This document shows, in pieces, positions 8,072 through 33,500 of a stretch of DNA of 35,498 bases. Location: assembly GCA_014381465.1 (NCBI GenBank), contig JACNLP010000042.1:128220-163717 (forward strand), read 5' to 3'. The DNA comes from Flavobacteriales bacterium. GTDB taxonomy: Bacteria; Bacteroidota; Bacteroidia; Flavobacteriales; BACL11. Position numbers and translations under genes: made by a program. How positions within the stretch are numbered: position 1 is the first letter of the stretch; each line of letters begins with the position of its first letter. The notes below the pieces were generated by a model that was not told the origin of the DNA, made no database searches, and worked only from the letters and a program-made list of their open reading frames with translations.

Positions 8072-8545
8072 ATGAAACGATATTTTTTACTACTCACACT
8101 CTCTTTTTCTGTACTTTTAGGGTTTTCCCAAAAAACGCAAAGACAACAGATGCGAGATGCTGAAAAAGTGGCTATAAGTTGGCTTAATAAACTAAATAGT
8201 AAAAAGTATTTGGATTGCTGGAATATGCTAGGAAAAACAACCCAAAAGCAAACTACTTTTGAAGATTGGAACGCATATTTCAGTATTGAACTTATGCCTG
8301 AATTAGGGGATTTTATTTCCAGGAAGTACTATTTGGCTGAAATTGAAAAAGAAATGGAAGGACTGCCAAAAGGATTGTATGTAAATATTCGTTATAATTC
8401 CATTTACAGCAATACCGATAGTGCAGAAGAATATGTTATGATGTCTTTATCTAAAGCAGGAAAATGGGAGATACTCTCTTATTTTGCCGAATACCAACTA
8501 AAAGATGATAATGGAGAGCTTCCAAAATCTCAGTTAAAAAACTAA
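8072..8545 (+). CDS. secreted DUF4019-like protein
   Basis: 157 residues with a signal peptide (MKRYFLLLTLSFSVLLGFSQ). The mature part follows the DUF4019 pattern: an N-terminal helix with a conserved Trp (EKVAISWLNKLNSKKYLDCW, residues 33-52), a middle Trp (TFEDWNAYF), an Arg-containing turn (FISRKYYLAE), then LPKGLYVNIRYNSIYSNTDS and a final strand pair (EEYVMMSLSKAGKWEILSYF). The biochemical function of this NTF2-like-looking family is not known to me. It has its own -7 box. Its TAA stop overlaps the stop of the minus-strand gene at 8542 tail to tail by 4 bp. Confidence 0.75.
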   Translation: MKRYFLLLTLSFSVLLGFSQKTQRQQMRDAEKVAISWLNKLNSKKYLDCWNMLGKTTQKQTTFEDWNAYFSIELMPELGDFISRKYYLAEIEKEMEGLPKGLYVNIRYNSIYSNTDSAEEYVMMSLSKAGKWEILSYFAEYQLKDDNGELPKSQLKN

Positions 8546-8560
8546 ATGGCATTTTTAGTT
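8540..8560. terminator. weak hairpin over two convergent stop codons
   Basis: AACTAAA (8540-8546) pairs with TTTAGTT (8554-8560) across a 7-nt loop. The left arm contains both stop codons of the converging genes. The stem is AT-only and has no strong T tract, so it may be only a weak bidirectional terminator. Confidence 0.3.
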
Positions 8561-8775
8561 ACCCAATATCTGTAAGCTATAATTAGCATTTCCCATTTTT
8601 TCATTTTTTTGATATCCTTTTTATATAAACTAGGCAAAAGCAATTTATTTAACTTTGCTAATATTTTAAAAACCATTTTCCTTTGAAATAGAATAAGGAG
8701 TAAAAGAATGATGAGAAAGGCAACAATCAAAAGAATGTCCTCTCCATACCCGAAAGCAAGTAGTATATATATCAT
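8542..8775 (-). CDS. small membrane protein coupled to the CUB/T9SS gene
   Basis: 77 residues starting at an ATG that overlaps the stop of the preceding gene (ATGA), a sign of translational coupling. One strongly hydrophobic helix spans residues 14-30 (ILLIVAFLIILLLLILF), followed by a basic tail: LAKLNKLLLPSLYKKDIKK, then KKWEMLIIAYRYWVTKNAI. The tail resembles very short Bacteroidota proteins with a LNK..LPS...K.Q..I...YVT pattern that are often left unannotated. That is recollection, not a search; if right, the second Met (residue 34) could mark the ancestral start. It is the last gene of the nine-gene operon. A chance ORF is possible, but the coupling and the composition argue for a real gene. 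Confidence 0.6.
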   Translation of the reverse strand: MIYILLAFGYGEDILLIVAFLIILLLLILFQRKMVFKILAKLNKLLLPSLYKKDIKKMKKWEMLIIAYRYWVTKNAI

Positions 8776-11700
8776 CTTATAAGCGTTACTGTTCCAACAA
8801 TTTTTTCAGTTGTTGAATTAGCCAGTTGTTTGTACTGAATTATAAAAGCATAAACGCCCATTGGAGCATCTGCCCCATTTTCTAATTTTCCATCCCAAGA
8901 CCCCATTTTGTAGTAGGAATACAATTCCTGTTGAATGTTACACAAATTCCCATCCGAATAACTATCAGTAAGTATTATCTCATCAGATTCAAAAACAATA
9001 TCTCCTCCCCACCTTTTATGTATTTTGATATTAAAAGAGAAAAAACCACCTATTCCTTTTGTGAAAAATTCATCATTACAATGATCTATATTTGGAGTAA
9101 AGCTATTTGGAACAAACAACTTATTATCAGGTAAAATACAAACCATTAAAGAAGATGTATCCGTGCAATTTCCACTATTAATAAGAATTAAACTTACTAA
9201 ATAGTTCCCTGTATCTGAATAGAAATGTTCGGGATTTATCCCAGAAGAATAAGGTTGAGTAGTGCTATCTCCAAAACTCCAAAAACTTGCAGTTGCTATT
9301 TCATTGCTATTAATATTGCTATTATCAATAAATTGAAAGCTACCATCCAGAAGAGAAATACACTCTTTCTTATTCACAAAAAAGTCAGCTATTATGTTAT
9401 CATAACCAGGGATACTCACAGTATCTGAAATAATACAGCCAGATATATTATCGGTAATACTTACAGTATAATTTTTTGAAACCTGAGCATAAATACTATC
9501 GGTGGTTTGTACAGGATTGGTATTCCACCAATAAGAATAACTGCTGTTTCCTGTTACATTTACTTTGGCAAAACCATTTTCCCCATAACAATCTTTGGCA
9601 CTAGTATTAAAGGACAAACTAAAAGTAGGGTAAACAAAAATATTAATACTTTCAGTTGCTGGCTCACTACATCCATCATTAACAATCACATTATAAACTG
9701 AATTAACAATAGGGCTAACATTATGCTCGAAACTACTTCCTAATCCATTATCCCAAACAAAGCTATAATTACTTCCAATTCCTCCATTTATATTCACGCC
9801 AATATTCACTATATCTCCAACACAAATTGAATCATCAGAAGAATAAGTGTTTAAACTTAAAGAATCGCCAACTAATACAATAGTATCAATACTTATAAGA
9901 CAACTTCCACCACCTAAAGAATAAGTAATTACATGATAGCCAGGACCAGCAATTAAAGGGTTGAATGTAAGATTGGTAATTCCATTTCCAGATAAAATCC
10001 CTCCAGAAGGGCTTACATTTACTTGAATATTTGTATCTAAAAAACAATAATTACCCCCTACTCCACTCATGCTTAGAACAGGATTACTATAAACAGTAAT
10101 TATAGTAGTATCTAAGCATCCTATTGGCGATTGATACAAAACATAATGAACACCAACCCCAGCTGTTGTTGGAGAAAATAAACCAGTATTTTGGTTAACT
10201 ATCCCCTGCCCTGCCCATTGTCCCCCACTAGGATTAGCATTTAAATTAAAATCAGCAGAAGTAGCACATACTATAGTGTCCGTTAGAATACTTTGAGGAG
10301 CTACAGAAAATATAATACTATCTGAACAAGAATTAGCTGTATAAAAAATAGTATGATTTCCTACACCTGCCAGATTAGGATTAAACTCACCAGGGTAAGT
10401 AGCCGAAACTATTCCGTTCCCACTCCATATTCCGTAAGTAGGAATTCTTGAAATAAAATTGGAGTCAAGAATAATAAGTGTATCATCATTACAAGCAAAT
10501 AAAGAATCTAAAAAAACATCTGTTTCTTGTACTGAAATTAGTGTAGTATCTATGCATCCAGCAACCGAATAAGTTACTACATCTACTCCCAAACCCAATG
10601 ATGGATTAAACAAACCACTCATTGGATTTGTAATATGCGTTCCTGTCCAAATTCCACCAGACGGAACACCAACTAAATTGAAAGGAGCTTGTGTTGGGCA
10701 AATATCCATATCATTTCCAGCATCAATAGGTTTAACATAAATATTTACCGTATCGGTACAGCCTTGAATATTATAAATTAAAGTATGTAAGCCAGAATCA
10801 GCCACCATTGGCAAGAAAACCCCATTAGGCGTAATTGGACCTCCTAAAAATGACAGCAAATCAACTGCTACATCCGATTGCCATGAGTTCCCAGTGATTA
10901 CTCTAAGGCGCATCAAAACTTCTGTCCCATTAAAACTGCTTAAATCCACAACCGCTTCCAACCACTGATTTGCTTGGCTTCCGCTTCTGATCCAAATATC
11001 GTTTGTCCAAGTTGTTCCATTATCAGTAGATATATCTACTGAAAAAGTGCCCTGCCCTACTCCATCAGCAGGATTATCATACATATGATACCAAAAATGT
11101 AATACAGGGTTGGAATATTCAGAAAGATTCAAACAAGGACTAATTATTCCTGCTCTTTTGTAAGGGTGATTTGCGCCTGATGCTTCTGTATATACATAAT
11201 TTGTACCTTCATAAGCAAAGCTTGGGCCAGTACCTGCTGATGTTGTTCCGCCAGAGTTTGTAGTCCAATTAAAATCATTTAAAGGATCGTTTGTCCAATT
11301 GACTAATCCTAATTCAAAATTATCAGTATAAGGAAAAGAAGTTATAGGACTACTACAACTACTTGCTTGTAGTGGTAAATTAGGGCTTGTGCTCCAATAC
11401 CCATTTATTGGTGAAAATATAAGCGGATAAGAAGTAGATTTTTGACAAATTGTATCGTCAGGCTGGGTAATAATATTGTCAATAATAATATTTAAGGTGT
11501 CTGAGCAACCATTTGGAAGCGTATAAATTGCATTAATAATTGTTGGTATATTTCCTACACTAATATCTCCATTTGATTGAATGCAATTACATCCACTCCA
11601 AGTTCCACCAGGAGTTGTATAAATTGTGTTTAAATTGAAAGTTGGCGCATTAGGACAAGCAGAAATGTCTGGTCCTGCATTAACCTCTAAAACAGTAATA

Positions 11701-12881
11701 TTCATTGTTTCAGAACATCCTCCAAATCCGTAAGATACAGAATGCACTCCAGCTCCTGTTGTTGTTGGAGAAAAAATACCTTGACTTCCGCCAACAATTC
11801 CAAATCCCCACCACCACCCTCCATTTGGTGTAGCAGTCAGGATAAAATCAGGAATAGTTCTGCAAACTGTTGTATCATTTTGCAAAGTGGGCAAGGGTAA
11901 AACATAAATTGTAATAGAATCTACTTGAGATTGAGCTGGACCCGCATCACTTACCGTTACATAATAAGTAGTTGTTACAATTGGTGCGACATTGTGTGGA
12001 CCTGGAGTTCCCGGCAAAAAAGGAGCCCAAATATAATTGTAAGAAGTAGAATCTCCCCCAGAAACTTGCACAAAAATATCTGTATTATCTCCAATGCAGA
12101 TACTGTCTTCATTTGTCATCAAATTCACTTGTAAAGGACAATCGTTTATCACAAAGTTATAGTTTGAGTTTAGTATCCAAATACTATCGCAAACATCTTT
12201 AAAGTAGCTTTGAAAAAAGATGGAATAAGCCCCACTTTGATTTAAACCAGGAAATAAATTTAACTCAATGGTATTAGTAGAGTCGTTCGCACAATTTATT
12301 GCAGTTGCATTTACTATTTGATTAATTTGACCCACAACATTAATAATAGCTGTAGCTACCGAATCACAATGAATATTTTGGTCGAGAGTTATTGTTAGAA
12401 CATTTGTACTGCAAGTAGGTGAAACTGGAATAGTAATAATTGGATTGGATGGAGGAGTGATTATAGCTTCCCAATTTAATTCAAACCCTTCAAGAGCCAC
12501 ATTATTATCGCTAATAAAACTGATTGTAATACAACCATTTGAAACAACTACTGGAGGTAGGTTCACACCTGAATATGGACCTCCAATTAGTGGAGAATTG
12601 GTGTCAGGACCATCAAAAATTCGTAAATAATCAAAAGTTGGCTCTGTTTCAAAAAATGTAAAAGTAATAGTAATATTTACCGCTCCTGGCGGACAAATAG
12701 TGAAACTATAATTTTCATTTTGATCATAATATCCTGCTGCAAGCGGATTTGATTCGCTATCAGTTAATGTTCCAAAACACTCATAAACAGTAAGATTCTG
12801 CATGGTATATTGCCCATAAGAAGAATTACTATAAAGAAGTATTATAGTAAACATTAACAGCAATTTTTTAAAATACTCCAA
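8772..12881 (-). CDS. giant CUB-, MAM- and repeat-containing protein with T9SS type B sorting domain
   Basis: 1369 residues, secreted by T9SS and probably attached to or released from the cell surface. The TTG at 12881 gives a good signal peptide (MEYFKKLLLMFTIILLYSNS ending SYGQ); an in-frame stop lies directly upstream, and the next ATG (12854) would remove the basic N-terminus. Order: a CUB domain at about 28-140 (ECFGTLTDS, FDYLRIFDGP, ISFISDNNVALEGFEL); a PKD/Ig-like unit near 256-330; then a series of about 80-residue repeats of the form GGxWxGxGI...G.FxP..AGVG.H.V.Y...GC.DT. One repeat is interrupted by a MAM-like jelly roll at about 515-677. Another PKD-like unit follows, then the type B domain (LFVPNSFTPN, RWGG, MGSWDGKLENG, PMGVYAFII) in the last 90 residues. 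CUB, MAM and Ig-like folds suggest adhesion or binding; no enzyme motif is visible. Confidence 0.85.
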   Translation of the reverse strand: MEYFKKLLLMFTIILLYSNSSYGQYTMQNLTVYECFGTLTDSESNPLAAGYYDQNENYSFTICPPGAVNITITFTFFETEPTFDYLRIFDGPDTNSPLIGGPYSGVNLPPVVVSNGCITISFISDNNVALEGFELNWEAIITPPSNPIITIPVSPTCSTNVLTITLDQNIHCDSVATAIINVVGQINQIVNATAINCANDSTNTIELNLFPGLNQSGAYSIFFQSYFKDVCDSIWILNSNYNFVINDCPLQVNLMTNEDSICIGDNTDIFVQVSGGDSTSYNYIWAPFLPGTPGPHNVAPIVTTTYYVTVSDAGPAQSQVDSITIYVLPLPTLQNDTTVCRTIPDFILTATPNGGWWWGFGIVGGSQGIFSPTTTGAGVHSVSYGFGGCSETMNITVLEVNAGPDISACPNAPTFNLNTIYTTPGGTWSGCNCIQSNGDISVGNIPTIINAIYTLPNGCSDTLNIIIDNIITQPDDTICQKSTSYPLIFSPINGYWSTSPNLPLQASSCSSPITSFPYTDNFELGLVNWTNDPLNDFNWTTNSGGTTSAGTGPSFAYEGTNYVYTEASGANHPYKRAGIISPCLNLSEYSNPVLHFWYHMYDNPADGVGQGTFSVDISTDNGTTWTNDIWIRSGSQANQWLEAVVDLSSFNGTEVLMRLRVITGNSWQSDVAVDLLSFLGGPITPNGVFLPMVADSGLHTLIYNIQGCTDTVNIYVKPIDAGNDMDICPTQAPFNLVGVPSGGIWTGTHITNPMSGLFNPSLGLGVDVVTYSVAGCIDTTLISVQETDVFLDSLFACNDDTLIILDSNFISRIPTYGIWSGNGIVSATYPGEFNPNLAGVGNHTIFYTANSCSDSIIFSVAPQSILTDTIVCATSADFNLNANPSGGQWAGQGIVNQNTGLFSPTTAGVGVHYVLYQSPIGCLDTTIITVYSNPVLSMSGVGGNYCFLDTNIQVNVSPSGGILSGNGITNLTFNPLIAGPGYHVITYSLGGGSCLISIDTIVLVGDSLSLNTYSSDDSICVGDIVNIGVNINGGIGSNYSFVWDNGLGSSFEHNVSPIVNSVYNVIVNDGCSEPATESINIFVYPTFSLSFNTSAKDCYGENGFAKVNVTGNSSYSYWWNTNPVQTTDSIYAQVSKNYTVSITDNISGCIISDTVSIPGYDNIIADFFVNKKECISLLDGSFQFIDNSNINSNEIATASFWSFGDSTTQPYSSGINPEHFYSDTGNYLVSLILINSGNCTDTSSLMVCILPDNKLFVPNSFTPNIDHCNDEFFTKGIGGFFSFNIKIHKRWGGDIVFESDEIILTDSYSDGNLCNIQQELYSYYKMGSWDGKLENGADAPMGVYAFIIQYKQLANSTTEKIVGTVTLIR

Positions 12882-12902
12882 TTAATATAAATTTAGTTTA
12901 CC

Positions 12903-13367
12903 CTATTCTACGATAGTAATCTCTTCTGAAGTTACAGTATTACTCCAATTTCCAGCTCTGTCTTTAACTTTCACAGTATATGTTAACCTTTCACTACTTC
13001 CCACTCCAATCAAAAAAGTAGTATTCAAATAAATATTAAAAGTTCCTTTTATATAAACCTCCTCCCCATTAGGTGCTAAAGGAGGAATATGATACATATC
13101 AGCTTCACTCAGTCTGCTATCATGTACACTTAAGGATAAGATATCTGGATCCTGAAAACCAAGGTCACCATTTCCATCCTCATAAGCAACTTCTAAAAGT
13201 ACGCTTTGAGTAAACTCCTGAACTATTGAAGGGCTAACTTTTTTTATTGATATTAAGGGAGTATCAATATTTTCTCTTATATCTTCTTTCTTACATCCAT
13301 AAAATAAAAATAGAATAATGGAAAATCTGAGTATTTGTATTCGTATATTAGTTAAATTCAAATGCAT
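12903..13367 (-). CDS. lipoprotein of unknown function in the envelope operon
   Basis: 154 residues. An N-terminal hydrophobic segment ends in LFYGC, a lipobox, followed by KKED, so the mature protein starts Cys-Lys-Lys-Glu-Asp. The rest is predicted mostly beta, with VLLEVAYEDGNGDLGF (a short Asp/Asn loop, possibly Ca-binding) and a last strand region YTVKVKDRAGNWSNTV. This resembles the Ig-like 'GDLG...D..GN.S' proteins common in Bacteroidota. It overlaps the preceding cytochrome gene by 20 bp. I do not recognise a specific function; it may bind or anchor the cytochrome lipoprotein. Confidence 0.75.
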   Translation of the reverse strand: MHLNLTNIRIQILRFSIILFLFYGCKKEDIRENIDTPLISIKKVSPSIVQEFTQSVLLEVAYEDGNGDLGFQDPDILSLSVHDSRLSEADMYHIPPLAPNGEEVYIKGTFNIYLNTTFLIGVGSSERLTYTVKVKDRAGNWSNTVTSEEITIVE

Positions 13368-14310
13368 ATCTTTTTATTATTGGGAAATCAGTTCCGTCAG
13401 AAGGAATTTCCGTTATAGTATTATGTTCATCTTGGATATAAATTCTGTTATACAACAAATCATCTGTAGTGTATGAGCTAACATCAATAGTAATGTAGTG
13501 ATAAAAATCAAGCATAGTATTCTTAAACCCCAGTTCAGAAATAGGCGTATTAGTATAAGTAATACTCTGCTCACTTACATTATTAAAATTATAAGCAGAG
13601 GTAGAAAATTTTGCTTTATTGTTAGTTAAATTTTGCACTGTTGTAACATCATCATCATAACTATACCAAACAGTAATATTTTGAGTGCCAGCAGGAACTT
13701 GTAGCAATATATTATTTCTTAATAATGGGGTGCTTCCTCCATCAGCATAGGCAACTAATCCTTTTATTTCTGGTTCAAAGTTTCCTAAACTTGGGCTATT
13801 GCCAAACATATCCTTAGCTCCTTCATTTATCCATTTTCTGATGTCTGCTAAAAATTGTTGTTTATTCTGATTCCAATACAGTTTTTCATCAGTATCCAAC
13901 CCTAATGGCATAATGTTCTTCTGCCCTAATTCACCAAACTCAACTGTTAATCTATGGTAAAGCATTGATTTTGTAGTATCTCCTGGTAATACTCTGTATG
14001 TAAAATGATTTGTAGGATAATTAGGATCGTTTTTAATTAAAGGATGATATACTAAAGTGTTATAAGTACTTTCAATTGTTCTAAAATCTGGTTCTAAAGT
14101 GCCATCATGACAACCAGAATTTGCACAAAGTGGAGAGAATATCCTGTCATGCAACCCATTAATTGTATGATTAGCAACTAAATAAGATGGATCATCTGAA
14201 TTGTCAGGATAGGTAAGGTTATCGTAAGGATTATCTATTTCTTTCTTGCAAGAGAAGAATCCAACAAAAACAATTAAGCATAAAAAAAGAGTTTTTTTAG
14301 TAAATTTCAT
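13348..14310 (-). CDS. c-type cytochrome lipoprotein with CX4CH haem site
   Basis: 320 residues. The lipobox is FFSC, followed by KKE. A single haem-attachment site reads CANSGCHDG (C-x4-C-H), a spacing rarer than the usual CXXCH. Around it, FSPLCANSGCHDG...DFRTIESTY, the later IMPLG (likely axial methionine) and the terminal helix DIRKWINEGAKD follow the class I cytochrome c pattern seen in planctomycete and Bacteroidota surface cytochromes. The second half (about 170-320) is beta-rich with no recognised domain. The signal sequence ends in Cys, so the haem domain is outside the inner membrane. It starts 3 bp after the DUF1501-like gene and probably exchanges electrons with it or with the Fe-S protein; that is inference. 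Confidence 0.75.
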   Translation of the reverse strand: MKFTKKTLFLCLIVFVGFFSCKKEIDNPYDNLTYPDNSDDPSYLVANHTINGLHDRIFSPLCANSGCHDGTLEPDFRTIESTYNTLVYHPLIKNDPNYPTNHFTYRVLPGDTTKSMLYHRLTVEFGELGQKNIMPLGLDTDEKLYWNQNKQQFLADIRKWINEGAKDMFGNSPSLGNFEPEIKGLVAYADGGSTPLLRNNILLQVPAGTQNITVWYSYDDDVTTVQNLTNNKAKFSTSAYNFNNVSEQSITYTNTPISELGFKNTMLDFYHYITIDVSSYTTDDLLYNRIYIQDEHNTITEIPSDGTDFPIIKRYAFEFN

Positions 14311-14313
14311 AGT

Positions 14314-15645
14314 TTATAAATTATCGAACATTGACATTGAGTTTGCTGCCAAATACTGAGTAGGAATCTGTCCTTTTATACCAAATATATCAGCAATTGT
14401 AAGCACACCATCAGTTGCGTTTCCAATAGGATTATTTTCACTACCTACTAAATTATTTGCAGGCACATTTTTGCCTACCATCATTCCAAATATTCTTCTT
14501 GCGTTTTGATCGGAATGATCAAAAGCGTAGAAGTCATTAAAGTCATGTATCGCATTTGAATCCAAGTTCCTGCCACATTCAGGAATAGCTATCATAATTG
14601 TATTTCCTGCCATAGATGGGATTGACTGTATTTTATCCCATAAATGAGCTAAAGAATGATCTGCCCTATGCACCGCCCTTAAATAACTAGTGAAGTTACT
14701 ATGACAAACATCTACATTATTCAAATTAACTACAGAAAGTTTTGGCTTAAACCATTTCATAATTTCAAGAGCATAACCAATAGTTGTAGCATCACCATTA
14801 TCAGAAACAGCTGGCATATCCACAGCAGAGGGATTAGCGTACATATATTTTAAAAATTCTTTTATATCATATTTTTCCTGTTCAGTATTATCAATAGTTA
14901 CAAGACCTGAACCAACTGTACCCCATACATTATCCAAAAACTCTTTTGTTTTGTACATTGGCTCTAATTCATCAACTTGGTCATATACTTTTGCATTTGA
15001 AAGGTGTTTTTGTCCATCATTTCCAAACACAACATTAGGTGCAATAAAGTTAGCACCATATTTTACACCATAGTCTTCATTCAAACTATAATTTAGAAGT
15101 GGAACAGAATTCATAATTCCATTACCTATAAACCAAGTGTCAGTTGCTTTTAGGTTCAGATGCTTTCTGACATATTCAAAAATAGTAGGATTTATTGGTT
15201 TTCTTTTTAACCCTTGACTTGAGAGGGTGTTCCCTTGAAGCAAGCCATTTAACCCTCCATAATGGCCAGTAGTTGCACTTCTCATTTCTTTAAAAATTGT
15301 GCCTTGCTGTTGGAATGTTTGGCTAAGAATTTTAGGAATTGGTACATCTCCTAATCCAGGAACAGCTCCATCAGTTCCATATACAATTTTATCAGTTGGA
15401 GCAGCCCCATTAAAAAGATTGTACATAATATTTCCTGGAAAATTAACTCCTTGACTATCGTCCAAATATCTTTGAAGTATAGTTTCTTGCTGTCTCATGC
15501 CACCAGCAAAAAGCACAAAAACAACATGATCAGCCATCTGAGAACCAGCAGCAGCAAATAACCTACCAGTTGGCAAAATATATGGCATAACAATACTGGC
15601 TGTTGATGCTTTTACTACATTGGTAATAAATTTTCTTCTTTTCAT
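14314..15645 (-). CDS. Tat-exported DUF1501-like protein (alkaline phosphatase/sulfatase fold)
   Basis: 443 residues. The N-terminus MKRRKFITNVVKASTASIVM is a twin-arginine signal, implying export of a folded protein. Family signatures: DHVVFVLFAGGMRQQET at the start of the mature domain, FKEMRSATTGHYGGLNGLLQ, DVCHSNFTSYLRAVHRADHS, and NTIMIAIPECGRN followed by FDHSDQNARRIFG. These match the order of motifs in DUF1501 proteins (GGxxxxDxxD, MRS..T.H, D.H, E.GR, DH). The first motif is GGMRQQET rather than the usual GG...D.FD, so metal ligands may differ. DUF1501 genes usually pair with DUF1549/1553 or DUF1800 genes; here the neighbours carry DUF1549/1553-like pieces. Substrate and reaction are unknown. 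Confidence 0.7.
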   Translation of the reverse strand: MKRRKFITNVVKASTASIVMPYILPTGRLFAAAGSQMADHVVFVLFAGGMRQQETILQRYLDDSQGVNFPGNIMYNLFNGAAPTDKIVYGTDGAVPGLGDVPIPKILSQTFQQQGTIFKEMRSATTGHYGGLNGLLQGNTLSSQGLKRKPINPTIFEYVRKHLNLKATDTWFIGNGIMNSVPLLNYSLNEDYGVKYGANFIAPNVVFGNDGQKHLSNAKVYDQVDELEPMYKTKEFLDNVWGTVGSGLVTIDNTEQEKYDIKEFLKYMYANPSAVDMPAVSDNGDATTIGYALEIMKWFKPKLSVVNLNNVDVCHSNFTSYLRAVHRADHSLAHLWDKIQSIPSMAGNTIMIAIPECGRNLDSNAIHDFNDFYAFDHSDQNARRIFGMMVGKNVPANNLVGSENNPIGNATDGVLTIADIFGIKGQIPTQYLAANSMSMFDNL

Positions 15646-15655
15646 AGTTTAGTTT

Positions 15656-16138
15656 TTAGTAATACTGATACTCATCAGAAAGCGCAAAAGCTGTATAAAG
15701 CATTTCTGCTGTAAAAGCAGGATTTACTTCAATAAATTTTGTTAAATATTCTTTCTCTGCTTCTGTAATATCTCTCACATAAAATCTTGTGTAGATATTA
15801 GTTAAGAAAATATCTATATCAGCACGCATAATAGAATCAGACGGGATAATTACATCTGGTTTATTCATGAAATTACTTACAATTACCTCATGAATAGTTT
15901 CCTTATCTCCAAATGCTTCAATACAATGCGTAATTTCTACTAATTCATTAGCACTTAATGCTTTTTGAAATAAATTTGCGTACAAAATAGAAATATACTG
16001 TTCATTGGATTTTAGTTTGGTTTTTTGCGCATTTGGTGGCATTGTATTTATTGCATCTACCCCATAGCTTACATCTTTTTTACAAGAGAAAATAATTATA
16101 GAAAATAAACAAACTAAAAAAAATATTTTTTTATTCAT
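15656..16138 (-). CDS. short lipoprotein with DUF1549/DUF1553-like segments
   Basis: 160 residues. The lipobox IIFSC is followed by KKD. The mature part is helical: EQYISILYANLFQKALSANE near residue 46-65 resembles the 'LY..LL.R.PT..E' helix of DUF1549, and IYTRFYVRDITEAEKEYLTK with LYTAFALSDEYQYY at the C-terminus resembles the end of DUF1553 (an 'L...S.EF' finish). It is much shorter than planctomycete DUF1549/1553 proteins and has no cytochrome domain, so it looks like a reduced version. It sits 12 bp after the porin gene and 10 bp before the DUF1501-like gene, the usual partner of these families. The assignment is by motif style and context and is moderately uncertain. Confidence 0.6.
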   Translation of the reverse strand: MNKKIFFLVCLFSIIIFSCKKDVSYGVDAINTMPPNAQKTKLKSNEQYISILYANLFQKALSANELVEITHCIEAFGDKETIHEVIVSNFMNKPDVIIPSDSIMRADIDIFLTNIYTRFYVRDITEAEKEYLTKFIEVNPAFTAEMLYTAFALSDEYQYY

Positions 16139-16150
16139 GACTAATAGTTT

Positions 16151-17521
16151 TTATAAAAATTTTGGTTTTACCGTTATCATTATCCACGACCAATTACTAG
16201 TTTCAAAAGCACTTCCTATGTATGGTTGTATTTCGTATTTTCCGTTACTATCTTCAAACTTTTTGTTTTCCAAATCTACAAATTCTTTTTCTTTTACTTC
16301 CTCTAAAGATTCTTTGCCGAAAAATTGAGAGTAGCCAATTTTAATATTGACTTCCTTACTTAAATCATATCCAATTGAAATATCCACTTCATATCCTAAA
16401 TTCTGACTAAGAATAAGATTAGCTTCAGTTGCTTGATTTAGGTTAGCATCATAACCATTACCGATATTTCCTACAGCATTAAACATATGCGTTACTGCAT
16501 TAAAACTCATTTTACCTTCTTTATATTTTACACCAAAAGTAATATCCTGCAAACCAACACTTCTTGCATGATTTCCTACATAAAAATAATCCATATTTCC
16601 ATTAAATTTATGGTTAGTTCCAAAAAGAGGCATAAAGGCTTTATCCTTTTTAAAATCTTCACCATAAGGGTTCAAGTCATTTCCTGATTGCTGCTCGTAA
16701 CTTGTAGTAAGCGATAAATTATCAGATAATTTGTAGGCAGCATCAACACCAATTAAATAAGCACTTAAATTCAGCCCTGTTTGTAAATAAAAATTTCCAT
16801 TAAGAGAAAAAGCATTATACTTTGTAGTTAATCTCCCTCCAAATGTTTGGATATCATTTTTAATATAATATTTGTTAATGGTGTAATCTGAAAGGTAATT
16901 CGTTTGATTCTCTACCTCCATTAAATTGATATAATATCTTCTTAAATCAGTATCATACATTGTTTTAAGATATACTAAACTAAGCGATACATTCTCTAAG
17001 GATTTGTTCATCCATATATAGTGCATATCTTTATATCCTGCTGACTCGTCTAAGTTTTTAGTAAAGCCAAGATGCACTTTTAATCCTCCTTCATATTTTA
17101 CAAGTGCAATATCATGGCTTCTACTTTGAGGAGCCCAACCCACATTTCCAAAAAGGCGGTGATCATCATACACTAATTCTTGCCTTCCAACTTTTACGCT
17201 TACATTTTCAATCAAACTTACTTCAGTCCACGCTTGATGAACCGTAAAAAAATCGTTTGTGCTGTTTAAAGTAGAGACACTACCCCAAGTTCTTACATCT
17301 TGTAAGCTTAAACCAACCTTATAATTATCTGCATTATAATTAAGATTTAATCTTGTTCTTTGGCTAGTTGAAATAGTCGCGTCCATTGCACTATCTGCCA
17401 AGTTTTTATAACCATGTTTATACTCCATTCTTGGTCTTATTTCTCCATCCATGCTAAACTGTGCAAATACACTATGAGCAAACAACATCATTCCTCCTAT
17501 TAATAAATTTTTTATAATCAT
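16151..17521 (-). CDS. outer-membrane beta-barrel of the alginate-export type
   Basis: 456 residues with a signal peptide (MIIKNLLIGGMMLFAHSVFAQ). From residue 22 it is made of alternating amphipathic strands. Family signs: FSMDGEIRPRMEYKHGY, QRTRLNLNYNADNYKVGLSL, VSVKVGRQELVYDDHRLFGN, WAPQSRSHDIALVKYE, and a final strand WSWIMITVKPKFL ending in Phe-Leu as barrels often do. The GRQELVYDDHRLFG block is typical of the alginate_exp (AlgE-like) porin family. It could supply an outer-membrane passage for small solutes used by the operon or hold the surface cytochrome in place. It lies 11 bp after the Fe-S membrane gene. Confidence 0.8.
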   Translation of the reverse strand: MIIKNLLIGGMMLFAHSVFAQFSMDGEIRPRMEYKHGYKNLADSAMDATISTSQRTRLNLNYNADNYKVGLSLQDVRTWGSVSTLNSTNDFFTVHQAWTEVSLIENVSVKVGRQELVYDDHRLFGNVGWAPQSRSHDIALVKYEGGLKVHLGFTKNLDESAGYKDMHYIWMNKSLENVSLSLVYLKTMYDTDLRRYYINLMEVENQTNYLSDYTINKYYIKNDIQTFGGRLTTKYNAFSLNGNFYLQTGLNLSAYLIGVDAAYKLSDNLSLTTSYEQQSGNDLNPYGEDFKKDKAFMPLFGTNHKFNGNMDYFYVGNHARSVGLQDITFGVKYKEGKMSFNAVTHMFNAVGNIGNGYDANLNQATEANLILSQNLGYEVDISIGYDLSKEVNIKIGYSQFFGKESLEEVKEKEFVDLENKKFEDSNGKYEIQPYIGSAFETSNWSWIMITVKPKFL

Positions 17522-17532
17522 TTTTTCTTTTT

Positions 17533-18585
17533 TTAAGCGGTTTTTAATTCTTCAAATTTTGGACGATATTCCCAACTCTTTATAGTGTTTCTCAATACTA
17601 TCCACCAGAAGAAGAATAGTGTAGAGATAATTCTTAATATTAATTTCAATGAAGTAAATTCTGACAAATCTAAGCCAAATACTCCACTAGCATCTGTAAG
17701 GCCTAAAATTGATGGAATTCTGTACCAATAATAGCAGGAAATTGCTGCTGCTGCAAAAACTAAAGCAACTTTTGTATAATCTTTTTCTTCAAATAATCTT
17801 CTAAGAATCCAATAAGCAAATAAGGTTATAGAAAAACCTAACATTGGCAAACCATATACTTCATCAAGATTTGCCCACCCTTCCATTCTTGTAGGAAAAT
17901 CGGCAACATTAAACCATCCCCATACAAAACCAGGAAAACCTCCAACAAAAATAAAACTTGCAAATCGACTTATTGCAGATTCTTGATTAGAACTTGGGGT
18001 GATATTATCAGTAGAATCTGCACAAGGACTAATACAATTTACACAAGTTGAGCAATGAGTATTTGGTACTGTTACCAATGGCTTGCTTCCATAGAGTTTT
18101 TCTACTGGAAATACAGGGCAAAGCCCAGAACACCAGCCACTTTTTCCTTGATACAAATACCCAAGTATCAATGCTAAAACGCCTACACCTACAAGTGCTA
18201 TTACTACTGAAAGTCCGCTTGTTTCTACATGGCGTAAAGGCACTAATACATAAAGCAAGATTACACTTATTAAATAAAATATTCCTTGTTGTTTTTGATC
18301 CTGTTGTTTTGCTTTACTAATTCCTAAATATCGAGCAAAAAGTGAAGTAGTTCCCATTGGACAGATATTTCGCCATACTCCAGGAGCAACAGCAAACAAG
18401 AGTGGAGCTGCAAAAATTAATACATTCCAAAAAGCATCACGCCCAAATGACTCTGGTAATGACGGAATAAATCTTAAAGAATCGTTAAGCATTAGAGTAA
18501 GGAACCCAATCCCCAAAATAAATAATAGTACTTGAAGTGCCCTCCAAATTCTCAATCCTTTTTTTGAAATTTCTTTTGTTTCCAT
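17533..18585 (-). CDS. polytopic 4Fe-4S membrane protein (NapH/NosR/FixG style)
   Basis: 350 residues with about eight hydrophobic segments (near 15-33, 52-68, 100-117, 123-143, 208-224, 243-261, 270-287 and 316-335). Cysteine motifs: GVWRNICPMGT near 70, GWCSGLCPVFPVEKLYG near 150-166, and CSTCVNCISPC (CX2CX2CX3C) near 178-188. The first two resemble the CxxxCP repeats of membrane Fe-S proteins that oxidise quinol or pass electrons across the inner membrane (NapH, NosR and FixG types). The third could hold one [4Fe-4S] cluster. The C-terminus lacks a second complete ferredoxin motif. In this operon it is the only inner-membrane redox candidate, so a quinol-to-cytochrome role is plausible but inferred. 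Confidence 0.75.
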   Translation of the reverse strand: METKEISKKGLRIWRALQVLLFILGIGFLTLMLNDSLRFIPSLPESFGRDAFWNVLIFAAPLLFAVAPGVWRNICPMGTTSLFARYLGISKAKQQDQKQQGIFYLISVILLYVLVPLRHVETSGLSVVIALVGVGVLALILGYLYQGKSGWCSGLCPVFPVEKLYGSKPLVTVPNTHCSTCVNCISPCADSTDNITPSSNQESAISRFASFIFVGGFPGFVWGWFNVADFPTRMEGWANLDEVYGLPMLGFSITLFAYWILRRLFEEKDYTKVALVFAAAAISCYYWYRIPSILGLTDASGVFGLDLSEFTSLKLILRIISTLFFFWWIVLRNTIKSWEYRPKFEELKTA

Positions 18586-18591
18586 AGTTAT

Positions 18592-19518
18592 TTAATCAAA
18601 ATGTGCGTATTCATCCGTCATTAGAATCTTCTTTTGTACTTTCTGTAAATCATGATCGTAAAAGAAGGTCTCCATTATTTCTGCTTTTTCTAAAGTTGTT
18701 GGCTCACGAGATAGCATTGTAAGGTACACCCAATTTATCATTCCTTCATAATATTCTCTTGAATTTGTTAAAATCTCAATATAATCTCCTTTGTTTTGTC
18801 CTGGTAAATTAAATAATAATCTTGCTTCATTAAACTCTATCATATTAAAACCATTATCAAATTCATCTGTTGTAGGAAAACGAAAAAACAAATCATCAAA
18901 AGAAGCATTTACAAAATTAAAAGTGTTCATATTTATTAAATCATATATAGCATTGTAGAGCATTCGTGCATACACTTCATTTATTTCAATAACTCCATTC
19001 ATATATAAAACTTCAGATGAAATGATCTTTTTTAACTTATTTACTTCAAATCTTCTTTTATCTATTCCTTGTTGATTTCCTCCCATTAGAGAATCACTTA
19101 AAATTGCTTGCTCTAGAATGTTTATCTCAAAACTTAAATCTTCATTTGAAGCTCCTTCAATCATCCTTGCCTTTGTCATATCATAAATTCTATGATAATA
19201 AGCAGTTTTGTAAATTGTAGTAGAATCACCAATTGCAGTATCTAAAACAGTATTAGTCATTAGCTTTGTAATCAAGCTATCCCTATACTCCATTTTTAAA
19301 TCATTATCTTTTAAATATTTCGCTTCTTCCTCCATTTCAGTATCTAATGGCTCTCTCCCAATTAAATCAATAAAAATACGATTTACATAATTCTCAATAA
19401 GCACGGTAGGGATTTCACCATAATAAGGTGGAGTGTTATTCGGAATTGTTTCAATTTCTTTTTTGCAAGAAGAAACAATAGCTATCATTAATAAAAAAAT
19501 ATAAATTCTATTTTTCAT
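18592..19518 (-). CDS. lipoprotein with DUF1549- and DUF1553-like segments, first gene of the operon
   Basis: 308 residues. The lipobox VSSC is followed by KKE. Near residue 43-60, ENYVNRIFIDLIGREPLDTE matches the N-terminal signature of DUF1549 (VNRLFLDLLGR.PT..E), followed by a helical region LKMEYRDSLITKLMTN, as in the family. Near 267-285, WVYLTMLSREPTTLEKAE matches the LYL..LSR.PT..E signature of DUF1553. The middle is unlike the full-length planctomycete proteins, no cytochrome domain is present, and the total is about a third of the usual length. It looks like a compact fused relative. A promoter -7 box precedes it by 22 nt, and the Fe-S protein gene starts 6 bp after it. Confidence 0.65.
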   Translation of the reverse strand: MKNRIYIFLLMIAIVSSCKKEIETIPNNTPPYYGEIPTVLIENYVNRIFIDLIGREPLDTEMEEEAKYLKDNDLKMEYRDSLITKLMTNTVLDTAIGDSTTIYKTAYYHRIYDMTKARMIEGASNEDLSFEINILEQAILSDSLMGGNQQGIDKRRFEVNKLKKIISSEVLYMNGVIEINEVYARMLYNAIYDLINMNTFNFVNASFDDLFFRFPTTDEFDNGFNMIEFNEARLLFNLPGQNKGDYIEILTNSREYYEGMINWVYLTMLSREPTTLEKAEIMETFFYDHDLQKVQKKILMTDEYAHFD

Positions 19519-19584: not shown

Positions 19585-21312
19585 CTATTTTTTTATTAGC
19601 TTAAAATTATTTATGAAATCTTGTTCTTTAATTTTTATTATATACACTCCCTTATTTAAGCTGTTATTAATTGTAAGTTGATTTGTAACATCATTCCAGC
19701 TTTCTATTAATTTTCCATTTATTTCAAATATCTGAATATCAAATTTTTCATTATTTGGCAAATCAATATTGATTTTTCCACTTGTAGGGTTTGGGTAAAT
19801 CATAACTTTATTTTCAAATAAATCATTAATAGAAGAAGTGCAAGTATCTACATAAACCCAAATATCTTCACGCACCACACAACCATTAGAGTCAATCGCT
19901 TCCAGCAGATACCATGTATCTTGACCTGGAAAATCTACTATCCTGTCTCCTATCATTCCATTATTCCAAGCGTAAGATACAAAACCGGCTGTAGCTTCCA
20001 ACACAATAGAATCCCCCAAGCACAAATAAGGAGGATTAGGAGCAGAATAAATGGTTAAATTTGGAGATGTAAATACATCTACTGTAAGTTCTCCTCTTGC
20101 TGCACATCCATTACTATCAATTGCTTCCACTACATAAGATGTGTTTATTGAAGGAGTTACTACTATTCTATTTGTAGTGTCATTTGTTGACCATACAATA
20201 GAAGTATAGTAAGCGTCAATCTCTAATACAATAGAATCCCCATCACAAATTATTGCAGGATTTACAGAAGAAAAGATATCGATTTCACCGATAGAAACAG
20301 TAAAACACGCACTGTCCGTGCAGCCAGTTGAATCGGTTGCCAAAACACAATATGTGCCGGCTGCTGTTACAATAATAAAGCTGCCAATAGCACCATTTGA
20401 CCAGAGATAAGAAACAAAAGGATTAGATGTAGTTGTTGGTGATGCAAGCAGTGTAGTCGAACTTCCTGAATTGCAAATAACCGAATCCCCAATTATTTCT
20501 ACTTCACAAGCAGTAGTTTGTGGACAAGGCAATAATTGTCCGTTTGGTCCTATTGCACTTGTGTAAGTAAAAATGCCATTTTGCATGGCAATACAGTCGT
20601 TATTATAAATATTTCCATCACAGCCGCAGACTGGCATATAAGTCAGTGGACATACACCAAAACCTCCTGTAGGAATACAGCTTTCACAAATGGTAGTATC
20701 ACATCCTGTTTGTAAATCAGTAATGGTAACACACCACCCAGAGTAAAATGGTTTCTGATTAGAAGATCCTACTGGCGTACCATCATTCCAAGCATAAGTA
20801 TATTGCGACATGCCGTTAACCGTAGCATTCATCATAATTGGAGAAGCTGGAAAAGGAATTGCTACCTGAACCCCTACAAGATTACAGGGAGAAGATGTAG
20901 AAGAAACAGTAAATTGAAAATCTTGATTATCATCTGGAACAATTCCGGGTGTACAAGGAGGTGTGCCAGGGCCGCTTCCAAACCCACTTGTAAGTGTTAA
21001 ATCAAAAGTATAAGTTCCTGCAGCAAGTGGCGGCACTACAAAGGTGTCGGTGGTGTAGCACATTGCTGTAAGAAGACCAAGGCAATGATGAGCGTTAGCC
21101 ATTATTGTATTTCCAACAACCGAGCTACTAGAGGATAGAAGTTCACAATCCGAACTAGAAAATTGCACATCAGCAAATATAAAAACGGTATCGTTAGTAG
21201 TTGGCTGTAAAGGTGCCCATTGGAATATTCCAATTGTTCCTTGTGTTGTTCCTTGTGCAGTTACTCCTAATGAAATAAAAATGTTTAAAGATAAGAATAG
21301 TAGTTTTTTCAT
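19585..21312 (-). CDS. T9SS type A cargo protein with a Kazal-like segment and Ig-like repeats
   Basis: 575 residues with a signal peptide (MKKLLFLSLNIFISLGVTAQ). After an N-terminal beta region, residues about 219-255 read CPLTYMPVCGCDGNIYNNDC followed by IA. The P-V-C-G-C-D-G-x-x-Y-x-N-x-C order is that of Kazal-type serine protease inhibitor domains. Three Cys-containing Ig-like repeats of about 70 residues follow (CNSGSSTTLLAS, CDGDSIVLEIDA and CLGDSIVLEATA, each ending DS.GC). The last 70 residues are a type A sorting domain (IYPNPTSGKINIDL, INGKLIESW, GVYIIKI, NFKLIKK). It is exported to the surface or medium. Whether the Kazal unit inhibits a protease or is only a disulfide scaffold is not known. 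Its stop is 66 bp upstream of the operon's first start. Confidence 0.82.
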   Translation of the reverse strand: MKKLLFLSLNIFISLGVTAQGTTQGTIGIFQWAPLQPTTNDTVFIFADVQFSSSDCELLSSSSSVVGNTIMANAHHCLGLLTAMCYTTDTFVVPPLAAGTYTFDLTLTSGFGSGPGTPPCTPGIVPDDNQDFQFTVSSTSSPCNLVGVQVAIPFPASPIMMNATVNGMSQYTYAWNDGTPVGSSNQKPFYSGWCVTITDLQTGCDTTICESCIPTGGFGVCPLTYMPVCGCDGNIYNNDCIAMQNGIFTYTSAIGPNGQLLPCPQTTACEVEIIGDSVICNSGSSTTLLASPTTTSNPFVSYLWSNGAIGSFIIVTAAGTYCVLATDSTGCTDSACFTVSIGEIDIFSSVNPAIICDGDSIVLEIDAYYTSIVWSTNDTTNRIVVTPSINTSYVVEAIDSNGCAARGELTVDVFTSPNLTIYSAPNPPYLCLGDSIVLEATAGFVSYAWNNGMIGDRIVDFPGQDTWYLLEAIDSNGCVVREDIWVYVDTCTSSINDLFENKVMIYPNPTSGKINIDLPNNEKFDIQIFEINGKLIESWNDVTNQLTINNSLNKGVYIIKIKEQDFINNFKLIKK

Positions 21313-30142: not shown

Positions 30143-30565
30143 CTAAATATGAGCTGTGTTTAAATCCAAATAGCTCTGTAAAATAATAGCTGCACTCACT
30201 TTATCAACAAGAGATTTATCCCTTCTTTTTATTTTTTTTATTCCAGCATCTAATATGCTTTGTTTAGCAATTTTGGAAGTAAAGCGTTCATCAATTCTTT
30301 TAATAGGGATTTGAGGATATTTTTTAGAGAGTTTTTTTACAAAATTTTGAGTAATTTGGGTGCTATCCGTTGGGGTTCCATCCAAGTTTTTTGGCTCGCC
30401 CACTACAAAGCAATCTATTTCTTCTTTGGCTAATAAATCTTTTATAAAAGTAAAAAAATCAGATGTGTCAACTGTGCAAAGTGCAGATGCAATTATTTGC
30501 AAAGAATCAGAAATTGCAAGCCCAATTCTCTTTTTTCCAAAATCAATTCCAAGGGCTTTTGCCAC
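30143..30565 (-). CDS. ruvX: Holliday junction resolvase-like / 16S rRNA processing nuclease (RuvX, YqgF)
   Basis: 140 residues in the RNase H-like fold: ALGIDFGKKRIGLAISDS at the start, FVVGEPKNLDGT in the middle and RIDERFTSKIA near the C-terminal part, with a final catalytic Asp in SLVDKVSAAIIL. It acts on the 5' end of pre-16S rRNA in other bacteria. The start is a GTG that shares its first base with the TAG stop of the preceding protease gene (TAGTG), which implies coupling. No ATG fits better, and the GTG gives the standard N-terminus. It converges with kdsA, with 33 bp between the stops and no obvious hairpin. Confidence 0.93.
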   Translation of the reverse strand: MAKALGIDFGKKRIGLAISDSLQIIASALCTVDTSDFFTFIKDLLAKEEIDCFVVGEPKNLDGTPTDSTQITQNFVKKLSKKYPQIPIKRIDERFTSKIAKQSILDAGIKKIKRRDKSLVDKVSAAIILQSYLDLNTAHI

Positions 30566-33500
30566 TATTGTTTTACAATTTGGTAAGTAATATTTTCTGG
30601 CAATACTTCTATAATATAAGCTCCAGAAGAGTAATTAGAAATGTCAAAATTCCATTTTTCATTTATATTATTTGCAGATTTTATCACTTTCCCATTTACA
30701 TCTAAAATTTTCAAATCATGCTGCTTGGTATCATTAAAAGTGATGGAAAAAGAACCCATTGTAGGATTTGGAAAAAGTTTGATATTAGTATAATTTTCTT
30801 TAACCGACAATGCATTCAAGTCAATTGGAGGGAAAACGATATAATCAATCCAAGCACAATCTTGTCCACTTTGCCAACTACCATCTTTTTCATATTCCCA
30901 TTTAAAAGTATTTTGCCCCACCCCTACCGGATAAGTTGCTAAAGTCCATGGCTTATTTCCTGACCATTCTGCTATTTTTGCACCATTTATCTTGAATTTT
31001 AAGAAGTCATAATCTTCTTCTGAAGAAACGGAGTAATAAAAAGAAATATCCCCAGCAGCCAAAACATTTACTGTTATTGAAAGTTCCGATTCCTCTGCAT
31101 CAGGCAATCCGTTAAAAGATTGGCTACAATAAGTTCCTTCATAAGGTTGCACGCTATCAACAAACCAAGGAAATACACCTTGAATCCAAGCGTAATTAGT
31201 AAAATTTCCTGTTTCATAATCTTCATCAATAATACCAATTACTTCTGAAAAAATAAAGTTGTAATTGTAAGTTCCGTTCCCAAAATTAAAAGGAAACTGT
31301 GCCAAAGTGCCAAGTGGTGTAAGCGCATCAATACTAATGGTAAATACCGTATTTGCAGATTGGCTAATATTCAAATTATTGATATTGGAAGTAGAAGATG
31401 TAACACTCACATAAGAACTTAAACTAGATAAATTTGCTTGCAAATTATTAATATCGGCATGACCAGAATTTACCGCCTCCACAATAATATCAACCGTTTC
31501 ACCAGCATCCAATTTTCCATTTCCATTTCCTGTTGCCACATCATCAATAGTAAAACTTATATGCCCCAATAATGGTGCATTCAGCATTATTTGGATATTC
31601 GAAATCCAAGAGTTTCCACTAGCATCCGTTACATCCAAATTGAAAAGTACTTGATGCTGGTCAGGAATATTATTATCTACAACAAAAGTAAAAGCATTAC
31701 TGATTGTACTAGCTTGATTGGCATTCACAAAAGAGGTGAAATCCAAACTATCAGTTATTGTAATATATTGATTATTTGTACTAAGTTTCACATTTAAATT
31801 AGTCGCATTTACTGAGCCCAAATTCTGCAAGTCCACATCCAAATGAATCACTTCTCCATAATCAACTAATCCATTATTATTTCCAAAACTATCATCTACT
31901 AAATAATTAGGACAAATAACAAAAGGTGCATTAGTAGTAATAACCGAAACCGTTCCGATATAGGGCTCACGGAATTGCTTAGTAACAACCAAATCAGCAG
32001 TTCCTAAATTAGCTAGAGGAGAAAAACTTAAAGTTACCATTCCACTTTGCCCAACAATTTGTGCATCAAGCAAAGTACCATTCATAGAAAGGGCAACATA
32101 AGCATGCTCTTCTGCTGTAACTGCTAATGTAGAAGTACCAAGAGGAACAGCTGAAAGGTGAGTTACACTCATAGTAGCAGGAACGCCTAAATAAGGCATC
32201 ACAGAAGGATCTCCCATCAAATGATAGATTTCCCAATAATACTGCTCAGAACCACCAGCTTGGGTTACCGCCAAATTTCCGGCATGTAGCATTTGCCCTT
32301 GAGTTATAAACCAATCAGCTTGCTGTTCTCCATTTTCATGCCAAATACAATCGTAAATTCCTAATCCAGTTTGTGCGTAAGTAGGATTTGTTGGTGGAGG
32401 CGTAGTACCATTTCCAACACCCCACCAATAATCTTCATTCCAATAAGTGTTATTTGAGCCGCCAATATAACCAACTGCCCCTTTACTATTTGCTCTTAAA
32501 AGTGCTTCTCCAAAACATTCTGGAACATCAAATTTATTCGATTGACAACAATTTCCTATAATCAAACCATACTCATTTGTATTCTGTAATGAAGGCACAT
32601 CAGAAGTTGTAAAACTTGGATCGGACCAACCAGAAGAACCACAATGAGCCGTATAATTTGCAAAACCAACTCCCCCACTTATATCTGCAATAATTGCAGC
32701 AGAAGCCCCTGACATATCAGAAGTAATTGGGCTTCCTGAACCATATAGGTAAGTGTAAGAAGTTAGACCATGTGTAGTATTGAAATAATTATCTGTTCCA
32801 TAATTTATTTGCCCATTTCCATAAGTTGGCGCCATAGAAGCATCCACCCCAGCAACCATCACTACCTCATCCAAATAAGAAGGATCAGCCATGGTATATT
32901 GCTCATATTCTAAGGTTTTCAAAATTTGAGGTGTCAATTCCTCAGGCATGGTAGCTGAAAAACGACCATAATACATTTCAGGATAAAAATCACCTCCACC
33001 ATCAAATTCACAATAATACATATCCGCCAAATGAGAACCAGCATTACCATTAAAAGAAGGCACTTGGGCATCATCTCCCACAATTAGTAAATAAGTTGGA
33101 GCAGGATCATTTACAGTAGCATTATCATACATATTTTTGATAAAAGCCCTAATAGAAGTTGTTGTGTTACCAACATTTGGATCGTTTGTGTAACCTTCAA
33201 CTACTTCAAATCCTTTTTTGGTTTTCCATTCTACAAATGGTTGCAAAATAGTTTGAAACATAGGATCGGAAATTATTACATATTTTATTGGATAAGTAGA
33301 AATAACATCCTTTGTTGGAATTGGTAGGTAATTTACAAATTGCTTAAACTGATGCTCAAAATTTGGATTAAAATATTGCTTTCTAATCGCTAAATCTCTC
33401 TTAAAATCTACATTTTTGAAAATTATTTTTACTTCTATTTTCGTTATGATTTTAAGCTCATTTGTAACAGGATTATAGCGAAATGGAGAAATACTTAATC

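Follow-up and report, generated by a model that had tools for sequence, protein, structure and literature searches.

A widespread six-gene envelope cassette of Bacteroidia and the probable replacement of its core in a Flavobacteriales genome

Modules that pair a PSCyt1-DUF1549-DUF1553 protein with a DUF1501 protein are abundant in Planctomycetes and Verrucomicrobia; their function is not known, although a link to carbohydrate has been suggested (PMC5615132), and DUF1501 itself has been described as uncharacterised (PMC4452313). Bacterial chitin synthases are accompanied by DUF1501/DUF1800 pairs (PMC5122149), and type-B cargo of the type IX secretion system (T9SS) is reported to associate with PorP-like proteins (PMC9143113). 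Here we describe a locus with features of each of these systems, found in a window of 35,498 nucleotides (the whole stretch analysed) on a 163.7-kb contig of a Flavobacteriales draft genome (2.0 Mb, 85 contigs, 97% complete). Its eight contiguous minus-strand genes, which run from position 19518 down to 8772, are named in transcription order LpA308, FeS350, Barrel, Lp160, D1501, Cyt320, Lp154 and CUBMAM. Six of them form a conserved cassette, whose five-gene core has in this genome probably been replaced by a divergent copy carrying the other two.

The cassette was traced through D1501, whose homologues were looked for in three sets of genomes: 100 relatives, 395 from the phylum and every GTDB species representative. 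The GTDB scan gave 351 stretches with D1501 relatives, of which the best 80 were kept. In 64 of the 65 homologous loci that span it fully, the core LpA308-Lp160-D1501-Cyt320-Lp154 keeps this order and lies on one strand; a T9SS type-B protein with CUB and CHU_C domains follows in 59 of 62. Outside our genome's own family, a PorP/SprF gene comes next after the T9SS protein in 19 of 39 loci, and one homologue of the T9SS protein contains an SprB repeat; in this window no PorP/SprF gene adjoins CUBMAM, and six such genes lie elsewhere in the genome. We conclude that a six-gene envelope cassette, apparently undescribed, is widespread in hundreds of Bacteroidia.

FeS350 and Barrel do not belong to it. 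Both genes are missing from all 80 homologous loci and from approximately 28 loci of relatives (the sets overlap), and the largest gap within the core of other cassettes is 335 bp. FeS350 has no relative elsewhere among the 100 relatives or in a 396-genome sample of the order; its family occurs in a further 15 genomes from the phylum sample, neither a barrel gene nor a cassette gene adjoins it in the neighbourhoods read, and viral contigs gave no match to it. Homologues of Barrel are commoner. On these comparisons the pair appears to be a one-off insertion between core genes 1 and 2, seen in this genome alone. The original prediction, made from the DNA letters, had electrons travelling from the quinone pool to the surface by way of an Fe-S protein in the inner membrane, while the barrel let a substrate through. 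This path is not supported, since its two key genes are an accessory insertion, and what drew the eye as a redox operon of nine parts is a local mosaic. As to the gene set expected to recur in other genomes, six genes do cluster in one direction in many Bacteroidia, while FeS350 and Barrel accompany them in no other copy.

Phylogeny suggests how the pair arrived. Window D1501 lies outside the clade of its own family, separated by a fully supported branch, and the concatenated tree of the five core genes agrees; forcing the window core to group with its genus is rejected (difference in log likelihood 172.5, approximately unbiased (AU) test p 3e-7). The T9SS protein CUBMAM, however, clusters with the genus with full support. 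Compared with a same-genus locus, identity is 70% for the T9SS protein and drops to 39% at the very next gene; the remaining core genes show 44, 58, 59 and 50%, and the upstream flanks return to 62%. Given the tree conflict and this drop in identity, the simplest reading is that the five-gene core was probably swapped for a divergent copy from another lineage, which brought FeS350 and Barrel with it, while the resident T9SS gene and the flanks would have stayed. The branch of the window in the concatenated core tree (0.70, compared with 0.56-0.68 in other outside lineages) is not exceptional.

The locus has the layout of one operon (Table 1), with gaps between its eight genes of +6, +11, +12, +10, +3, -20 and +21 bp in transcription order, so that the spacing first described, from a 20-bp overlap to 21 bp, is borne out by the gene coordinates. 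The nine-gene operon proposed for 8542-19518 is indeed a tight one-direction cluster, but of eight genes: position 8542 lies inside a convergent DUF4019 gene outside the operon, whose last gene stops at 8772, and the ninth gene (19585-21312) begins beyond a 66-bp gap and is kept upstream mainly in loci of the own family. Neither the Bacteroidota promoter pattern nor sigma-70 patterns occurred above chance, which neither backs nor counters a single transcript. The DUF4019 gene (window 8072-8545) adjoins the cassette end, as it does in own-family loci, and in one locus (L054) sits upstream of the core instead. At window 30565-34011 there is a gingipain-like C25 peptidase with a C25 propeptide and a T9SS type-A sorting domain.

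Table 1. Genes of the operon and its upstream neighbour, with positions in the window.
Gene	Position	Strand	Description
LpA308	18592..19518	-	308-aa helical lipoprotein, DUF4214/PBS-linker/DUF1549-like repeats; core gene 1
FeS350	17533..18585	-	Polytopic NapH/MauN-like 4Fe-4S membrane protein, 7 invariant Cys; apparently inserted, outside conserved cassette
Barrel	16151..17521	-	Alginate_exp (PF13372) outer-membrane barrel; apparently inserted, outside conserved cassette
Lp160	15656..16138	-	Small helical lipoprotein, distant likeness to LpA308; core gene
D1501	14314..15645	-	Protein with twin-arginine (Tat) signal, predicted alkaline-phosphatase-superfamily fold, distant DUF1501 relative; core gene
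Cyt320	13348..14310	-	CX4CH mono-haem lipoprotein, PSCyt1-like N-terminal and immunoglobulin (Ig)-like C-terminal domain; core gene
Lp154	12903..13367	-	Small lipoprotein; fifth and last gene of the five-gene core
CUBMAM	8772..12881	-	T9SS type-B (CHU_C) protein with CUB, MAM and PKD domains; cassette gene 6, vertically inherited resident
	19585..21312	-	T9SS type-A secreted protein, Kazal-like stretch; upstream of operon

Our genome also carries a second, distant and shorter paralogous cassette of five genes, which has no T9SS protein; it occurs in other lineages too and was seen at four further loci among those examined, and its D1501 is approximately 37% identical. In our genome it reads LpA-Lp160-D1501-Cyt-Lp154 (L033:9527-13524, G000:C44) and is followed by a gene for what by eye resembles a thioredoxin-domain (YyaL/DUF255-like) protein. 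In another genome (L056:9671-10846, G075) D1501 has two in-frame stops and the adhesin is fragmented, because either this copy is decaying or the sequence contains errors.

Five of the eight operon proteins received no family when scanned directly against Pfam and NCBIfam, with nothing useful for LpA308, D1501, Cyt320 and Lp154 and only a sub-threshold DUF4214 match for Lp160; none of the window proteins had a direct Pfam match to DUF1501, DUF1549, DUF1553 or PSCyt1. For D1501, a profile search of solved structures also found no match. Its AlphaFold2 model (predicted local distance difference test 78.6, predicted template modelling score 0.82) aligns with PafA (5tj3; Z 25.1, root-mean-square deviation 4.0, 296 residues aligned), and its homologues show weak Phosphodiest and Sulfatase matches in Pfam; the model thus predicts an alkaline-phosphatase-superfamily fold. 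Residues D312, H315, E356, R359, D376 and H377 are invariant around the expected metal site. Compared with genuine DUF1501 by hhalign, the C-terminal 119 columns aligned with a probability of 94.5 (E 7.6e-8), and D-x(1,2)-H, E-x-G-R and D-H motifs are common to both families. PF07394 was matched neither by window D1501 at E 1 nor by 18 homologues at 0.01, and the genome has no PF07394 match. The DUF1501-like Tat protein of the original prediction accordingly holds at the level of profiles, where D1501 appears to be a distant relative; outright membership was rejected, as the Pfam model is not reached.

The CX4CH motif of the predicted cytochrome lipoprotein was called correctly and is invariant in 37 homologues. 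Cyt320 does not have the CXXCH of PSCyt1 cytochromes; its invariant residues are C62, C67, H68 and M134-P135. The N-terminal domain aligns by hhalign with PSCyt1 (PF07635) of PSCyt1-DUF1549-DUF1553 proteins (probability 95.8, E 7.1e-9), and the cysteine/histidine and MP...WI..GA motifs line up, which makes the haem domain homologous to PSCyt1; covalent haem binding is predicted from the conserved motif. The C-terminal domain is Ig-like. A structure search with the model recovered that domain only and says little about the haem domain, and a profile search of solved structures returned chance-level matches only.

The likeness of the lipoproteins to DUF1549 and DUF1553, as first proposed, survives as a weak signal. 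In the LpA308 alignment of 40 members, DUF4214 is detected in 24 (best 5.1e-7), PBS_linker in 12 (best 2.5e-7), DUF1549 in six, DUF1553 in three (best for these two 4.5e-5) and DUF1800 in two; profile comparison of DUF1549/DUF1553 with the lipoproteins is likewise weak. Against linker proteins of the Protein Data Bank the LpA308 family scores E 1.6e-5. The family therefore matches the DUF4214/phycobilisome linker helical domain, although the window protein alone has no match. Lp160 resembles LpA308 (E 1.5e-6, in part via the signal peptide) and has no useful match to the DUF1553 and DUF1800 profiles. In the four lipoproteins the lipid cysteine is followed by a Lys and then an acidic residue in 76-84% of members, compared with a rough background of 20%, and the full C-X-K-(D/E)2 motif is present in 14-52%. 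A rule for surface export of Bacteroidetes lipoproteins has been described (PMC5080379), and the excess of Lys and acidic residues tends towards it; a proven export signal for all of them was rejected, given the low share with the full motif.

The T9SS-exported CUB/MAM protein is confirmed, with CUB, MAM, PKD and CHU_C domains; the C-terminal CHU_C signal domain (PF13585, E 5.5e-9, residues 1256-1357) marks CUBMAM as predicted type-B cargo. The genome encodes a cytochrome c assembly protein (PF01578) and TatC which, with its six PorP/SprF genes, make haem attachment, Tat export and type IX secretion plausible.

The extra pair was itself read largely correctly, as a polytopic Fe-S membrane protein and an alginate-export-type barrel, but it does not belong to the conserved cluster. 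FeS350 has its seven family-invariant cysteines and a weak match to the NapH profile (TIGR02163, E 2.6e-5, 23.9 bits, below the NCBIfam cut-off of 213). Hydropathy and the positive-inside rule place the cysteines on the cytoplasmic side, which is the expected side for NapH-type proteins. The operon encodes neither a quinol dehydrogenase partner of the NapG/NapC type nor a multihaem protein. Barrel passes the Pfam gathering score for PF13372 (41.2 bits compared with 25.2, E 1.2e-10); a profile search of solved structures found no match for either the FeS350 family or the barrel. A Barrel paralogue (38% identical) lies elsewhere in the same genome at L115:5511-6671 (G000:C21), beside the molybdenum-cofactor genes MoeA, MobA, MoaE and MoaC and beside TauE, and the barrel has similar neighbours in two other Flavobacteriales genomes (L119, L120), a hint of an oxyanion porin. 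In another Bacteroidota group (L106-L112) the neighbours of the Fe-S membrane protein are conserved and include genes for UvrA and an M24 peptidase.

Gene order, homology, the predicted fold, the tree conflict and the invariant residues are observations; complex formation, catalysis, the substrate and the part played by the pair are inferred. We tentatively propose the following mechanism. The lipoproteins would hold the folded, Tat-exported D1501 at the outer membrane, where its alkaline phosphatase fold could bind metal and substrate via the retained Asp/His/Glu set, and the single c-type haem may trade electrons with the D1501 site or its product. The T9SS protein would bind an external substrate or surface. 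FeS350 and Barrel would be accessory, the barrel letting in more of a small anion or sugar acid, and FeS350 working on the cytoplasmic side. Taken on its own, this mechanism (an outer-membrane complex with an alkaline-phosphatase-fold site, haem exchange and an external T9SS part) is rather less probable than its negation; the account as a whole, of a mosaic locus in which a conserved six-gene cassette had its core replaced by a divergent copy with two extra genes, and which works in this way, we hold with moderate confidence.

Several observations weigh against this account. The first metal-binding Asp of the alkaline phosphatase superfamily is normally found right after strand 1. In D1501, judged by position, an invariant A47-G48-G49 directly follows that strand and no conserved Ser, Thr or Cys nucleophile precedes G127-H128; the apparent replacement of the Asp by Ala-Gly-Gly, together with the missing nucleophile, argues against ordinary hydrolysis. 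The literature found holds no biochemistry for any relative (PMC5615132, PMC4452313). With regard to replacement, the GC content of the block, overall and at third codon positions, is the same as that of its surroundings and gives no compositional signal, the end branch of window D1501 is the longest (0.62), and no donor lineage with the Fe-S and barrel genes was found, so that acceleration after a single insertion retains some probability.

That alternative holds that nothing was replaced and that the pair entered a resident cassette whose core genes then evolved fast. It would account for the long terminal branch, the unremarkable base composition and the unbroken operon spacing; it does not explain why all five core genes shift together while a neighbour 21 bp away does not, nor is it favoured by a concatenated branch that resembles those of other outside lineages or by the AU test. 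We regard it as unlikely, and as a weaker explanation than core replacement. An assembly chimera, suggested by the 85 contigs of the draft and by the confinement of the pair to one genome, is far less probable still, as the pair lies inside the 163.7-kb contig with intact frames and spacings of 6-12 bp on both sides.

Concerning function, the strongest competitor of the proposed mechanism is a cassette that assembles or anchors a surface polymer or T9SS protein without catalysis, D1501 being a pseudo-enzyme of the alkaline phosphatase fold and the haem structural or sensing. The nucleophile and first metal ligand that are missing by inspection fit this possibility, as do the T9SS type-B protein and PorP/SprF to which the cassette is linked and the company that DUF1501/DUF1800 genes keep with chitin synthase genes (PMC5122149). 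The paralogous five-gene cassette, however, lacks a T9SS protein, and the six invariant residues of D1501 suggest a retained binding or catalytic site; we consider it possible, though less so than our own mechanism. A single dedicated electron-transfer machine, in which quinol feeds a surface oxidoreductase via the Fe-S protein and then the cytochrome lipoprotein while the substrate enters by the barrel, is improbable. Although one tight operon (gaps of at most 21 bp) and the conservation of cytochrome motif and Fe-S cysteines within their families would suit it, the cassette everywhere else lacks the pair and the pair elsewhere lacks conserved partners, the Fe-S site is predicted to be cytoplasmic, and there is one haem only and no NapG/NapC-like partner. 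An extracellular electron conduit was rejected, there being one haem and no porin-multihaem pair. A bolder form of the replacement account, to which we give little credence, is that the foreign core, together with FeS350 and Barrel, forms a working redox variant of the DUF1501/PSCyt1 machine that came from a lineage not yet sampled. An enzyme of the alkaline phosphatase fold at the outer membrane, coupled to haem, would then be fed by electrons from the cytoplasm or by a transported anion. No earlier variant would, if this is true, have accessory genes that give a clue to the chemistry of the PSCyt1/DUF1501 class as a whole.

Returning to the replaced core, its closest kin are probably the modules with which we began. 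In the genuine DUF1501 loci of Bacteroidota that were read, the gene directly upstream encodes a PSCyt1-DUF1549-DUF1553 or a DUF1800 protein. The predicted fold and DUF1501 kinship of D1501, together with the homology of Cyt320 to PSCyt1, therefore suggest that the five-gene core is related to PSCyt1-DUF1549-DUF1553 plus DUF1501 (or DUF1800 plus DUF1501) modules, with the parts split up and reduced. The cassette links this class with the alkaline phosphatase fold, with a helical scaffold of the DUF4214/linker kind and with type IX secretion. Short and split, with one part per gene and with D1501 relatives at 351 places across GTDB species genomes, this version lends itself far better to expression, deletion and folding.

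The PSCyt1-PSCyt2(DUF1549)-PSD1(DUF1553) plus DUF1501 modules of Planctomycetes, Verrucomicrobia and some Bacteroidota share with the cassette a helical or cytochrome component followed by a Tat-exported DUF1501 protein, together with the PSCyt1-like haem domain, a weak DUF1549-like signal in the LpA308 family and a DUF1501-like partner with the predicted alkaline phosphatase fold. In the cassette, however, the parts are separate and much shorter lipoproteins with no DUF1553 domain, the haem motif is CX4CH and not CXXCH, the cytochrome gene comes after D1501 instead of being fused upstream, a small lipoprotein and the T9SS protein are added, and D1501 fails the Pfam DUF1501 model. The DUF1800 plus DUF1501 pairs (Bacteroidota, and Proteobacteria with chitin synthase; PMC5122149) likewise have, immediately before the gene of a Tat DUF1501-type protein, one that encodes a helical protein, whereas LpA308 and Lp160 are lipoproteins with weak DUF1800 similarity, and the pairs read here have no cytochrome. 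NapH/MauN ferredoxin-type membrane proteins resemble FeS350 over the cysteine region (CX3CP and CX2CX2CX3C) in a weak profile match; FeS350 differs in its single CX2CX2CX3C, a score far under the family cut-off and the lack of a NapG/NapC partner. T9SS type-B cargo with PorP/SprF, of the SprB/SprF kind (PMC9143113), shares the CHU_C domain and, in half of the loci outside the own family, an adjoining PorP/SprF gene, but the T9SS protein of the cassette is tied to a five-gene core.

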